Assembly: GCA_003645255.1 (NCBI GenBank)
Contig: QNES01000016.1
Span: 1-39,707 of the forward strand
Source: Gammaproteobacteria bacterium
GTDB taxonomy: Bacteria > Pseudomonadota > Gammaproteobacteria > Beggiatoales > Beggiatoaceae
DNA length: 39,707 nucleotides
Reading direction: 5' to 3'
The notes under the pieces were generated by a model. It was not told the DNA's origin, searched no databases, and worked only from the letters and a program-made list of their open reading frames with translations. The translations under genes and the position numbers were made by a program. Positions 34,837 through 39,620 of this stretch are shown here, in pieces. Within the stretch, counting starts at the first letter, position 1. The number at the start of each line of letters is the position of its first letter.

Positions 34837-35275
34837 CCTTAAAATGTAGGCAATGATTTTGAAATTAAGGTATTAAGTTCTTGCCACTGGTGTTGATTTT
34901 CCGTCAAATGAGGCGAAGTTAAATTTTGGCCTGTTGAGTGAGCCAATTGAGAGTAAGGGTTTGGCAAAGTTTTATTAAACTCAGTAAAAATTTGATATAT
35001 CGGAAAATGACTTCTTGGGGACGAAAATGTTGGTCTAATGCGGGTGTAACATTGGCGTTGCAGTGTTATAGATAAGACAAAGGTGAATAGCGGGTTGAAA
35101 CATCTTATGTTAATGCTTAATGGTTAATGATTAATGTTTATAGTTTGAACAGCTAAAAACGTGATTTTTTATTTAACGGCAGACTTCACAAGTTTTAGAA
35201 ACTTGGAAAAAATAAAACTCAATCGTTAGTAGTATAACGGAAGATTGTTTACCATTAACCATTAACCATTAGACA

Positions 35276-35614
35276 TTAGTAACAAGCTGGATTCCAAACT
35301 AGGTAACGAGCATTCACCCATCCCATAGTGTTTCGATAGTCTACTTGATACCATTTATTTTCGTTTGGAGCATAACCCATCCCAATCACCATCACACATT
35401 TTTCATTTCGTGGAATTCGCCCCACTTTTGGGCTACGATGATTGGGGCTTTGACGAATATTTAAAACATCCTTTTTGGGTATATTGACTACTTTATAATA
35501 GGATTCTTCATCCTCAGTAGCTTGAACAATATTTTGCCAGCCTGATAATACAAAAAAAGATATAAAAATCAACAGCTTGGCAATTTTTCTTGTCTGAGAA
35601 AAATATAATATCAT
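35276..35614 (-). CDS. Secreted SH3b domain protein
   Basis: The 112-residue protein has a signal peptide or membrane anchor (IAKLLIFISFFVLSGWQ, cleavage near QATE) followed by one bacterial SH3 domain (about 38-108). The domain matches the C-terminal domain of the nearby kinase (36875-38362): both have DVLN(I/V)R, EKC, W..V.Y and GWVN..YL, and both keep the same two cysteines (Cys73, Cys111 here; Cys449, Cys488 there), which could form a periplasmic disulfide. Bacterial SH3 domains often bind peptidoglycan. It is the third gene of the minus-strand cluster, 280 bases after the M23 gene. Confidence 0.8.
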   Translation of the reverse strand: MILYFSQTRKIAKLLIFISFFVLSGWQNIVQATEDEESYYKVVNIPKKDVLNIRQSPNHRSPKVGRIPRNEKCVMVIGMGYAPNENKWYQVDYRNTMGWVNARYLVWNPACY

Positions 35615-35892
35615 ATTAACTTCCTTTGATGCTTATCATGTTCCGATTGTCCAAACTCAAATTGAGTTTGCTATACGCAGCGTGGAAACAAACTTAACTT
35701 TTCATATGAGGTTGATAAGCAAAAAAAGATGCAACCCCTTTTGGAACTCCATAAGTTGTATCCGCGTGCAGTATATACTTGACACCGTCAAAGACTGATT
35801 GTGTCACACAATGAAATATGCATACTTTGTGCCAGAAGCTGTTTTTGAAAATGGTACCTGGTTTCAACTACTGTGAAACTGCGTGCGCTCCG

Positions 35893-36909
35893 CTAATCTA
35901 AAAATTTTATAACCGCTCTATTTCGACGTTGTATAGACTTTTTAAGGGTTCTTTCATAGCTTTTAATTTTATCTATTATTTGATTGTCATCTTGATAAAA
36001 TTCTTTTATCAAAAGAAGTGGATCAACACTTTTATTATTCGGTTTAATTTCAAAATGCAATTGTGCCTCAATGGCATTTCCGGATGAACCATTAATTATT
36101 CCTATCACTTCACCTTGTTTAACCTTTTGACCTCTTTTGACTGAGGCACGTTTAAGATGAACATAAAGCGTGTAGAGTTTATTACCATGATGCAATTTCA
36201 CATATAAACCGGAACGAGAACTTCTTTTAACTTTTGTAACTGTTCCATCAGCCGCCGCAATCACATTAATTTTATCAATATAGATATCATAGCCCTGATG
36301 TTTTCTTTTTTTACCCTTCCAATCATCGCGTTTGGAACCAAAGTGGGGCAGTCCATCACGAATAAAGTCAGAAGGAACATATCCAATAGACCGAAGCAAA
36401 AATTCGTCTATTAACATGTCCTGTAAGGGAATTTGAAATAAAATACTATTGAAGAAGAACATCATTTTCTTCGAACTCCTGATTTCACTCAACCAGTCAT
36501 TTTGAGCAGTGCGTTTTGAACAGGCTGGAAGACATATATAATATTGATAAGGAGATGAAGTTATTTCAAATTCATTTTTGCTCAAATCCGTTAAAAAAGT
36601 TGCAACAACCCGAACGATTCGTTTTTTTCCATCATAGAGTGCCCAATGGATACCTTTTAAATTAGGATAATCCACTTTTATTTTGCCCTTGTCACTGACC
36701 AAACAATTCTGCAACGATAGGATTAATTTTCGCTTCCATAAATCATAAGATTTTAACTGACAACCACTATGGCGAATAACAATAACAGCATTATCTTGGT
36801 CAAAAAAGATATTATTTATCCTACCTGCATGACTAGCCATTGGGAGCCATAATAAAACGATAAAAATAAAAGTTCTATTCAATATTTTTTTCTCCTTTAC
36901 AATCTTCAT
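35893..36909 (-). CDS. M23-family (LytM) protein with altered active site
   Basis: The 338-residue protein has a signal peptide (IFIVLLWLPMASHA, 15-28), a novel N-terminal region (30-165, beta-rich with cysteines at 50, 69, 126 and 130), and an M23 fold (180-300): HQGYD (His204, Asp208), YTLYVHL (His251) and QLHFEI (Gln283-Leu284-His285). In active M23 peptidases the last motif is HxH. The zinc ligands His204, Asp208 and His285 are kept, but the first, catalytic His is Gln here, so the protein may be inactive or weak and instead bind cell wall or activate an amidase, as EnvC/NlpD do. A basic helical tail follows. The ATG lies 35 bases inside the kinase gene, so the two are translationally coupled. 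Confidence 0.82.
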   Translation of the reverse strand: MKIVKEKKILNRTFIFIVLLWLPMASHAGRINNIFFDQDNAVIVIRHSGCQLKSYDLWKRKLILSLQNCLVSDKGKIKVDYPNLKGIHWALYDGKKRIVRVVATFLTDLSKNEFEITSSPYQYYICLPACSKRTAQNDWLSEIRSSKKMMFFFNSILFQIPLQDMLIDEFLLRSIGYVPSDFIRDGLPHFGSKRDDWKGKKRKHQGYDIYIDKINVIAAADGTVTKVKRSSRSGLYVKLHHGNKLYTLYVHLKRASVKRGQKVKQGEVIGIINGSSGNAIEAQLHFEIKPNNKSVDPLLLIKEFYQDDNQIIDKIKSYERTLKKSIQRRNRAVIKFLD

Positions 36910-38362
36910 GACTTTCTGTTAGGTAATATGAATTAACCCATCCCTGTAATTCCTTATATTGCACTTTAACCCACAGATGGTTTTTGACAGGATGAAGTTC
37001 ACCTAAGTATTCAATACATTTTTCGGTCGATGTTATTACCCCAATAGCATGTTGACGAGAACCATAACTGACACGTACATTTAAAACGTCATTAATGGCA
37101 ACACGGGTGACATCATAGTATTTTTTGGCTTTAAAGTCATTAGATACTTGTTGTTGAAGCACCACACGCGGCTCAAAACGTTGTACTTCTAAAAGCAAAG
37201 CTTCGGCTGTCAGGTATTTATTTTCAAACTTTATGCGATTTTTTCGTTCTATTGATAATTTGCTTTCAGCAATACGACGTGCTTTTTGTTCTTGGTTAAT
37301 AGTTGCCTCGGTTTCGTTTAGGATACGTTCTACATCCGTTTTTCTTTCTGTACGGAATTGGTGGTTTTTATACCCTAAAATCGTTGTAACAGCACAAAGC
37401 AATAAAATAACCCCAATGTAGGAAATATGTAATCGGCGATAACCTGATTGAGATACGTTAGTAGTTGAAATAACTTGAGGTGTGGGGGCTAACATTTTTG
37501 AATGCCATTGTTCCACAGTTTGAGGTCTATCTTCCTCGCTGAGTTGTAAAGCCCAATCAATGGCTTGTAATAAGCTTTTCCTATATTTACCTTTTCCAAT
37601 TTTGACGGCGGGTATCATAGGATCTTTCATGACACGACGAGTAGCAGCCGGCGGTGCTTCACCGTTAATAGTACAATACATGACCGCCCCTAGCGCGTAA
37701 ATATCCGTCCACGGTCCTTGATCTTTAATTTCATTATCATATTGCTCTAAAGGCGCGTAGCCAGGGGTCACGATACTGGTGACGCTACGACTTTTTTGCC
37801 CAACTGCAAAACGGGCGGAGCCAAAATCAAGCAAAATAGGCGTTTCATCGCTTCGAATATAGATATTATTTGGCTTAATATCACGGTGCAAAAAACCTGC
37901 CAAATGTAGTTCTTGAAGCCCGTCTAATAATGGCAATACGATGGCTAAAAGTTCTTCTTCAGTTAAAATACGTCGTTGTTTTAAGTAGTCCGTCAGACTA
38001 CAGCCCTTTTGGTACTCCATGACCATATAGGCGGTACCATTGGCTTCAAAGAAACGTAATACCCTGACAATACCAGGGTGTTTAAATTTCGCCAGCACTC
38101 GTGCTTCATCAATGAAGCATTTTAGGCCCCATTGAAATGATTCTTCATAAGAAGCCGATCTCACATAAACCGTGTTCCTACCTTCACGGACAGCAAAATC
38201 ACTGGGTAAATATTCTTTGATAGCCACTGATTGACGCAAGTGAGTATCTGTTGCCAGGTAAGTGATACCAAAGCCACCTGGTTTTCCAAGTACTGACTCA
38301 ATTTGATATTCAAGCAGCCCAAATCCTTGTGGGAGTGCGTTACGATATTGTTGCTCTTCCAA
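36875..38362 (-). CDS. Transmembrane Ser/Thr protein kinase with periplasmic SH3b domain
   Basis: A 495-residue Hanks-type kinase. The cytoplasmic kinase domain (about 18-290) has the Gly loop GKPGGFG (26-32), Lys49 (VAIKEY), the catalytic HRDIKPNN (159-166), DFG (179-181) and APLEQY in the activation segment, so it should be active. Residues 313-331 are the single transmembrane helix (YIGVILLLCAVTTILGY), which leaves the C-terminal part in the periplasm: a charged coiled coil (338-392) and an SH3b domain (about 418-486) with the cysteine pair 449/488. Sensor kinases of this kind usually have PASTA repeats; SH3b is an unusual replacement that could also read peptidoglycan. The next gene, an M23-like protein, overlaps it by 35 bases. 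Confidence 0.9.
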   Translation of the reverse strand: MEEQQYRNALPQGFGLLEYQIESVLGKPGGFGITYLATDTHLRQSVAIKEYLPSDFAVREGRNTVYVRSASYEESFQWGLKCFIDEARVLAKFKHPGIVRVLRFFEANGTAYMVMEYQKGCSLTDYLKQRRILTEEELLAIVLPLLDGLQELHLAGFLHRDIKPNNIYIRSDETPILLDFGSARFAVGQKSRSVTSIVTPGYAPLEQYDNEIKDQGPWTDIYALGAVMYCTINGEAPPAATRRVMKDPMIPAVKIGKGKYRKSLLQAIDWALQLSEEDRPQTVEQWHSKMLAPTPQVISTTNVSQSGYRRLHISYIGVILLLCAVTTILGYKNHQFRTERKTDVERILNETEATINQEQKARRIAESKLSIERKNRIKFENKYLTAEALLLEVQRFEPRVVLQQQVSNDFKAKKYYDVTRVAINDVLNVRVSYGSRQHAIGVITSTEKCIEYLGELHPVKNHLWVKVQYKELQGWVNSYYLTESHEDCKGEKNIE

Positions 38363-38957: not shown

Positions 38958-39620
38958 TTAGTAAGCACCTCGTGCCATCACCACTGCTGGTATCGTTTGA
39001 AATAAAAGTACTATATCATTGATAAAAGATTGATTAGCAATATATTTTAAATCCAGTTCAACTTGCTGATTAAAAGGAATATCGGAACGACCCGAAACTT
39101 GCCAAATACAGGTGATACCTGGTGTGACTTTTAAACGCTGATGTTGGTAGGGTGTATATTCTGCTACTTCGCTAGGTAGTGCTGGACGTGGTCCTACTAG
39201 AGACATATCACCCATAATAACATTCCAAATTTGTGGAAGTTCATCAATAGAAAATTTACGGATAAAACGACCTACCAGCGTAATACGTGGATCTTTTTTC
39301 ATTTTAAACAATACTCCACCTTTCATTTCATTATCCTTCGTCAAAGCCGTTTTACGTTCTTCTGCATCAATATACATAGAACGAAATTTCCAGATGATAA
39401 ATAAGTTTCCATCTTTGCCAACCCGAGTTTGAGAAAATAGAATTGGACCTTTAGAATCTAAGCGGATCCATAAAGCAACAGCCAGTAATAAAGGGCTTAA
39501 TATAAGAAGAATTATTCCCGAAACCATAACATCGAAAACACGTTTAATAAGTAAACGGGCATTCAAACTCTGTTTTGGTATCCACTTAAAAACAATATTG
39601 CAATCTATGACATTTTCCAT
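38958..39620 (-). CDS. Bacterial sugar transferase (undecaprenyl-phosphate glycosyl-1-phosphate transferase)
   Basis: The enzyme moves a sugar-1-phosphate onto undecaprenyl phosphate, the first membrane step of an exopolysaccharide, capsule or O-antigen unit. The 220 residues are the short, monotopic (PglC-like) form without the four-helix N-terminus of WcaJ: a single hydrophobic segment (KRVFDVMVSGIILLILSPLL, 27-46), then GPILFSQTRVGKDG, WKFRSM, RFIRKFSIDELPQIWNVI (with the conserved Asp-Glu) and MSLVGPRPALP, and TPGITCIWQVSGR. Start ATG 39620 with the RBS GAGGAGAAAAAA. The first 12 codons and the upstream region are duplicated in inverted orientation at 1-123. Polysaccharide partners are outside the window. 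Confidence 0.93.
   Translation of the reverse strand: MENVIDCNIVFKWIPKQSLNARLLIKRVFDVMVSGIILLILSPLLLAVALWIRLDSKGPILFSQTRVGKDGNLFIIWKFRSMYIDAEERKTALTKDNEMKGGVLFKMKKDPRITLVGRFIRKFSIDELPQIWNVIMGDMSLVGPRPALPSEVAEYTPYQHQRLKVTPGITCIWQVSGRSDIPFNQQVELDLKYIANQSFINDIVLLFQTIPAVVMARGAY

Follow-up and report, generated by a model that had tools for sequence, protein, structure and literature searches.

The window analysed here is a stretch of 39,707 nucleotides (contig QNES01000016.1, our contig C16) from the 4.4 Mb draft genome of a gammaproteobacterium of the family Beggiatoaceae (assembly GCA_003645255.1). This genome is G000 in our numbering, in which G denotes genomes and L the loci taken from them. 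Our subject is a group of three neighbouring genes on the reverse strand of the window, which a sequence-only reading had proposed to act together. They encode a Hanks-type Ser/Thr kinase (36875..38362; 495 aa, TTG start), a secreted AMIN-M23 protein (35893..36909; 338 aa, signal peptide read by eye) and a free secreted SH3b protein (35276..35614; 112 aa, SH3_3 E-value 6.3e-11). The open reading frames (ORFs) of the kinase and the M23 protein overlap by 35 bases (36875-36909). A gap of 278 bases separates the M23 gene from the free SH3b gene, which is thus less closely coupled than the first two are to each other. The locus was compared across 42 genomes of the family Beggiatoaceae from 25 genera; a search at the order level gave the same 42.

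Judged by fold and motifs, the first gene encodes a Hanks-type kinase. Residues 19-280 (37523..38308, reverse strand, as are all features below) match PF00069 with an E-value of 1.7e-35, and the His-Arg-Asp (159-161) and Asp-Phe-Gly (179-181) motifs are intact and invariant in 26 of 26 aligned orthologues, an alignment that leaves out G018 and G019, where the ORFs are cut or split. The strongest hydrophobic segment of the protein begins at residue 311, and the hydropathy maximum delimits a predicted transmembrane segment at about residues 311-329 (37376..37432). This is followed by a long helix, possibly a coiled coil, at about residues 334-396 (37175..37363). In the AlphaFold2 model (mean predicted local distance difference test score, pLDDT, 80.8) the tail consists of one long helix, covering residues 302-396, and then of SH3b strands. 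The predicted topology is that of a cytoplasmic kinase, a membrane segment, a long helix and a periplasmic SH3b domain.

The SH3b domain of the kinase occupies about residues 413-488 (36899..37126) and includes C449 and C488, which are invariant in 26 of 26 orthologues. It was identified by a BLAST match to the free SH3b protein, by alignment, by Pfam matches of orthologues and by fold. In the window protein itself the SH3_3 match lies under the Pfam cut-off (E-value 0.0049), and for 25 of 26 orthologues the kinase tail has a match to the same family at E ≤0.1. Structure comparison showed that the domain is akin to the SH3b domains of endolysins and other wall hydrolases, with a Z-score of 10.0 to the endolysin SH3b 4krt (root-mean-square deviation, rmsd, 2.3 over 71 residues; rows at Z of about 8 are common background). 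PASTA families were absent from the Pfam matches of the kinase at E ≤1. Against the PASTA-kinase equivalog NF033483 the kinase scores 127.8 bits, with a cut-off of 450, and is thus not a member. Among the orthologues, the kinase ORF of G018 stops before any SH3b domain. In G019 the kinase (L130:5956-7360, same contig as L047) consists of two overlapping ORFs, split between the kinase domain and the outer part, and the M23 neighbour is intact. The wider kinase family is expanded in G019, with nine matches at E ≤1e-80, several of which are clustered (L273, L274).

The second gene encodes a two-domain protein, whose named relatives belong to bins with the titles Thiomargarita, Candidatus Parabeggiatoa, Candidatus Marithrix and Thiotrichaceae. 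Its C-terminal part is an M23/LytM domain (residues 203-297, 36019..36303; PF01551, E-value 2.3e-24), and residues 28-132 (36514..36828) form an AMIN-like domain in the best AlphaFold2 model, which had a mean pLDDT of 71.5 (the other four had 52-61; seven sequences were in the input). VIA-align superposed residues 28-132 on the AMIN domains of PilQ (4av2; Z 11.5, rmsd 1.9, 91 residues) and AmiC (4bin; Z 11.1, rmsd 2.5, 100 residues), and residues ~150-306 align with LytM domains at Z up to 11. Pfam AMIN (PF11741) matched only 2 of 19 orthologues at E ≤5 (best E-value 0.0013) and left the window protein unmatched. The AMIN assignment is one by modelled fold.

The active site of the M23 domain combines kept and changed positions. 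It has the fold and the HxxxD zinc motif of the family, and all 19 orthologues compared share H204, D208, H251, Q283 and H285. All three zinc ligands (H204, D208, H285) and the other catalytic histidine (H251) are thus kept, and the loss of zinc ligands typical of EnvC and NlpD is not seen. The HxH motif of active M23 peptidases is replaced by QxH (Q283-L-H285, 36055..36063), with glutamine at the first position in 22 of 22 aligned orthologues. Among 98 ORFs matching our M23 model (loci L026-L120), QxH was found in seven, all at orthologue loci (L041-L047). Among the remaining 91 ORFs, 66 have HxH by pattern, 24 were mis-caught and have HxH or HxD tails by eye, and the last is the N-terminal piece of a split orthologue (L045). 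Published work describes the first histidine of HxH as not zinc-binding and as a proposed activator of water, with another histidine possibly helping, and calls LECT2, which is without the catalytic histidine, degenerate (PMC9662197). An H247A variant of Pgp3 has been used for substrate trapping, and which of two histidines acts as the base was left open (PMC6978369); in our alignment H247 corresponds to the first histidine of HxH. From the kept ligands, the QxH change and these published roles, we consider it likely that the M23 protein binds zinc and substrate, and doubtful that it is catalytic.

Most of the gene descriptions in the sequence-only reading agree with these results: a transmembrane Ser/Thr kinase with intact HRD and DFG motifs, an SH3b domain in place of PASTA repeats, a gene for a secreted M23-fold protein that shares 35 bases with the kinase gene, and a third gene for a free secreted SH3b protein. 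The label "degenerate M23" is apt for the first histidine of HxH, now glutamine, and not for H204, D208, H251 and H285, which are all kept.

Having described the kinase and its M23 neighbour, we determined how widely they occur together. An SH3b kinase of this type is present in 28 of the 42 family genomes, and the M23 gene adjoins it in 21 of these, which represent 12 genera. By first-start coordinates the two ORFs overlap in 17 of the 21 loci, although the values for G019 and G053 depend on the choice of start. The pair is thus conserved across genera, and its linkage holds while identity between pairs drops to 42-45%. Counting presence anywhere, the M23 gene was found in 22 of the 28 genomes with an SH3b kinase versus 1 of the 14 others (Fisher p 1.2e-5; the genomes are not independent). 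The exception among the 14 is G049, where the gene (L313:3234-4457) is broken into two ORFs and lacks such a kinase as a neighbour.

The surroundings of the pair were compared for 16 of the 21 loci, up to 4.5 kb on each side. A bacterial sugar transferase (PF02397) lies upstream of the kinase in the window (38958-39620), and G019, G021 and G051 also have a relative of it upstream of their kinases; these three further share a downstream gene of 385-391 aa. Upstream genes shared by two loci each are ruvB and two more genes in G008 and G012, and one gene in G016 and G020. Matches of lower identity or short length occur in pairs among G002, G004, G009, G020, G022 and G050, and between G003 and G016 and G008 and G019. 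No flank match with other loci was found for G023 and G053 in this comparison, and no close flanking match spans more than four of the 16 loci. In most genera, then, the pair is retained although the genes around it differ. The ruvB gene near the G008 kinase (L126:3422-5773, reverse strand) carries an intein in its P-loop domain (Intein_splicing, E-value 4.3e-10, between two RuvB_N pieces), and the ruvB upstream of the G012 kinase (L128) is intein-like by eye.

The third gene has a much narrower range. G000 and G002 carry it downstream of the M23 gene, and in G001, the third genome of the window's genus, its orthologue is found at the edge of another contig, a placement that fits a contig break. 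The linked free SH3b gene is limited to this genus. We therefore reject a three-gene module across genera: of the proposed module and its recurrence among relatives, the kinase-M23 part stands, and the three-gene order is confined to the window's own genus. In G012 a diverged second SH3b ORF lies between the kinase and M23 genes; it looks like a decayed copy of the genome's own kinase tail.

The free SH3b protein shares with the kinase, as the sequence-only reading had stated, a cysteine pair placed like C449 and C488 (read from the sequence). Its assignment to the same subtype as the kinase domain is less informative. The same SH3b model also matches SH3b-LysM-SH3b, SH3b-SH3b and SH3b-SH3b-SLT (lytic transglycosylase) proteins of the family (L298:3772-5211, L299-L312; three were Pfam-scanned, the others assigned by model and eye). 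These fusions to LysM or lytic transglycosylase support a wall ligand and make "same subtype" unspecific. In a tree of 66 SH3b rows and 76 columns, in which bootstrap values had not settled and which we read only as showing that free and kinase domains are not sisters, the kinase domains cluster together, including the extra copy of G012, and the three free domains form a separate branch (97/85). Both fall in the same half of the tree, away from the SH3b-LysM-SH3b proteins. The grouping of the kinase domain with its free neighbour, on which the sequence-only reading had staked its module, is thus absent. The window's own genome encodes one of the multi-SH3b proteins (L303). Downstream of the free SH3b gene, at window positions 35100-35280, lie short AT-rich repeats around TTAATGGTTAATG and TTAACCATTAACCATTA.

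The clearest indication of a functional tie came from a sister branch of the kinase. Seven genomes from six genera (G005, G007, G010, G014, G015, G017 and G040) encode a kinase from this lineage whose outer domain, in place of SH3b, is tentatively assigned as NTF2/SnoaL-like, by weak SnoaL_3 matches in three of nine proteins (best E-value 0.037). An Amidase_3 gene lies close downstream of the kinase in five of the seven (G005, G007, G010, G014, G017); PF01520 matched three of seven partner proteins scanned above the cut-off (E-values 1.6e-35 to 9.8e-24). A free NTF2-like protein follows the kinase in four (G007, G010, G015, G040). Genome-wide, one Amidase_3 type (E ≤1e-15) is present in 7 of 7 NTF2-kinase genomes versus 1 of 35 others (Fisher p 3.0e-7), and the M23 gene is present in none of the seven. 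None of the 42 genomes contained both kinase types. Scanning the loci with models of our own gave the same division, the amidase model being a narrow one, built from five proteins, that may miss distant amidases: the amidase was found in five of seven NTF2-kinase loci and none of 29 SH3b-kinase or M23 loci. Conversely, 22 of the 29 contain the M23 gene, which is absent from the seven. The sole amidase of this type among the 35 others belongs to G053, which has an SH3b kinase and the M23 gene; it stands alone on another contig (L291:3151-4440) and matches PF01520. This protein has an extra N-terminal domain without a Pfam match and a possible lipobox. We rejected it as an NTF2-like fusion, since neither the NTF2 model nor Pfam matches its N-terminal part.

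Phylogenetic analysis places both kinase types in a single lineage. In a first tree of 73 rows the deep order was unresolved, and the NTF2-like kinases formed one clade (100/98). After five long-branch rows were dropped (L249, L257, L261, L266 and one of two L245 rows), the trimmed tree of 68 rows put the 35 SH3b and NTF2 kinases on one side of a branch (100/97.6) and 33 other kinases on the other; our claim of a single lineage is based on this tree. By these sequence comparisons, the outer domain within a single kinase lineage is either SH3b, in most cases accompanied by AMIN-M23, or NTF2-like, accompanied by Amidase_3, so that sensor and hydrolase change together. This joint change is the strongest sign we have of a functional unit, and suggests one.

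A search of 369 genomes of the class found kinases at E ≤1e-85 in at least 25 genomes outside the family, at identities of 55% or less; the kinase and M23 searches scored at most six candidates for each genome and may therefore have missed some. With our models, none of 20 such kinase loci fetched from outside the family had a tail of the SH3b or NTF2-like kind (L254 and L255 are cut by the contig end). The M23 profile matched at least two of the 369 genomes, both in the family, and the amidase was found in two, G069 and G109. The 3.7 kb amidase contig of G109 shows no NTF2-like gene. In G069, which belongs to another family, a protein with the NTF2-like domain of the sister branch (E-value 1.4e-29) that matches no Pfam family overlaps an amidase of the sister-branch type, which matches PF01520, and no such kinase occurs in the 8.8 kb around the two. 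Because this pair overlaps without a kinase, outer domain and hydrolase may be tied to each other independently of it, as far as one genome can indicate; that family comprises two genomes, of which only G069 matches. As a control we used 33 related-kinase loci, 20 from other families and 13 paralogous loci of the family, seven of the 33 being under 9 kb and so covering only part of the neighbourhood. The amidase of the sister-branch type was present in none, an M23 gene lay near the kinase in one (L261), on the other strand, and NTF2-like matches occurred in two (L267 and L253, described below).

On these grounds we propose that the kinase and its M23 partner form a two-protein peptidoglycan-sensing unit, with the free SH3b protein as an optional third component, and give this reading a probability of about 0.5. 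The kinase would sit in the inner membrane and hold its SH3b domain out in the periplasm on the long helix. The exported partner would be directed to the peptidoglycan by its AMIN domain, where its LytM domain probably still binds zinc and the stem peptide without the histidine thought to activate water. With catalysis weak or absent, the partner may mark, or slowly process, a particular site in the wall. The SH3b domain of the kinase would read that site, or the partner itself, and thereby change kinase activity inside the cell; we infer both the peptidoglycan ligand and this direction of the signal. In the window's genus, the free SH3b protein would compete for the same ligand.

Several observations weigh against this reading. 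The M23 gene lies elsewhere in the genome in one of the 28 genomes with an SH3b kinase (G006), and no relative of it was found at E ≤1e-25 in six (G011, G018, G024, G041, G047, G055). These six include G011, assembled in three contigs, and G041, a single contig, so the kinase can do without the M23 protein. The sequence-only reading had held that kinases lacking the other genes would speak against a module, and such kinases do occur; we keep the idea, in its two-protein form, because the sister branch has its own outer domain and amidase. There, the amidase is on another contig in G015 and G040, and since the NTF2 kinases form one clade, the replacement probably happened once, and the Fisher values treat the genomes as more independent than they are. 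Sequence of the NTF2-like kind, though not the NTF2-like kinase type, also occurs beyond the sister branch: in G023, which has an SH3b kinase, a 64-aa NTF2-like piece lies ~2.3 kb from a paralogous kinase near a contig end (L267:4912-5106, E-value ~1e-8), and L253, from another family, has a weak match close to its kinase. The linkage of the pair also partly reflects shared surroundings, to judge by the flanking sequences, and a common cell-envelope theme could keep the genes together without direct sensing.

A different role for the M23 protein is conceivable, that of an amidase activator like EnvC or NlpD, with the kinase a mere neighbour in a cell-separation pathway and no contact between the two. 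The lost catalytic histidine would suit an activator, as would the AMIN domain, known from the amidases AmiB and AmiC (PMC10268282), and the sister-branch partner is itself an amidase. EnvC and NlpD, however, are described as being without a zinc site (PMC8416486), whereas three zinc ligands are invariant here, and the sister-type amidase, the one amidase looked for, was absent from all 29 SH3b-kinase or M23 loci. We consider such an activator doubtful.

The same invariant ligands, together with His251, would also be expected of an active endopeptidase in which His251 is the sole base and the cleavage product is the ligand of the kinase. A second histidine may share in water activation (PMC9662197), and the open choice of base in Pgp3 (PMC6978369) would allow for this. 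The retention of Gln283 in 22 of 22 orthologues, unseen in sampled M23 proteins outside the group, nevertheless points to a changed function, and the description of LECT2 as degenerate (PMC9662197) points the same way, which makes an active enzyme unlikely.

Control might instead run outwards, the kinase phosphorylating the M23 or amidase precursor before export and using SH3b only as an anchor to the wall. Gene overlap permits co-translation, and PrkC of Clostridioides difficile offers a precedent with CwlA (PMC8262956), yet control of the precursor leaves the joint change of outer domain and hydrolase unexplained, and we regard it as improbable. Least of all do we favour inherited synteny without a functional tie: the shared sugar transferase, 385-391-aa gene and ruvB group would agree with it, but a close flank match in at most four of 16 loci and none in G023 and G053, linkage kept down to 42-45% identity, and a partner type that tracks the sensor type make it very improbable.

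The two-protein sensing unit can be compared with several known systems. PASTA kinases (PknB, StkP, PrkC) are likewise membrane Hanks kinases with an outer wall-binding domain and a tie to peptidoglycan hydrolysis, and PrkC phosphorylates the SH3b-NlpC/P60 hydrolase CwlA (PMC8262956). In contrast to these, the kinases described here have no PASTA repeat, an SH3b or NTF2-like outer domain and a linked partner gene, and they belong to gammaproteobacteria; SH3b is placed on the kinase here and on the hydrolase CwlA in the PrkC system. RgsP and RgsM of Rhizobiales likewise pair a membrane receptor with one M23 protein in Gram-negative wall growth, but RgsP is a seven-transmembrane receptor (7TMR) cyclic di-GMP protein and not a kinase, and RgsM is membrane-anchored, with AMIN unmentioned in the available part of PMC6107284. 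EnvC and NlpD similarly use an altered LytM domain in division and wall remodelling (PMC8416486), whereas here the zinc ligands are kept, the protein has an N-terminal AMIN domain and a kinase is linked. With AmiB and AmiC the protein has the AMIN fold in common (AmiC 4bin, Z 11.1), the catalytic part being M23 rather than Amidase_3. YARHG-domain kinases are also Hanks kinases with a putative peptidoglycan-binding, non-PASTA outer domain; the domain is a different one, and the available part of PMC3355149 describes no linked hydrolase gene. We found no report of the present kinase-M23 gene pair in the open-access literature, subscription papers being outside the search. In the way they work, the PASTA kinases come closest, and RgsP-RgsM do so as a Gram-negative receptor with an M23 protein. 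The system is a member of neither, because it has no PASTA repeat and a kinase instead of cyclic di-GMP domains.

To our knowledge, wall sensing via Ser/Thr kinases is poorly known in Gram-negative bacteria compared with the PASTA kinases of Gram-positives. Tentatively, and as a possibility that we think is probably not right in full, the family may have a Gram-negative receptor-kinase system that pairs every kinase with a wall hydrolase of its own. Outer domain and partner enzyme would be cognate and would be replaced as a cassette (SH3b with AMIN-M23, NTF2-like with Amidase_3). A free copy of the outer domain would tune the receptor in some genomes, and the M23 protein, as a pseudo-enzyme that binds zinc, would act as the receptor's ligand. 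The genome gives a candidate receptor and a candidate wall partner together, and the natural domain replacement indicates which outer domain pairs with which enzyme. The conserved change from HxH to QxH provides a handle on whether the M23 protein became a signalling partner. The hosts include bins titled Thiomargarita, Parabeggiatoa and Marithrix, whose cells are large or filamentous and therefore particularly interesting for how their walls grow and divide.

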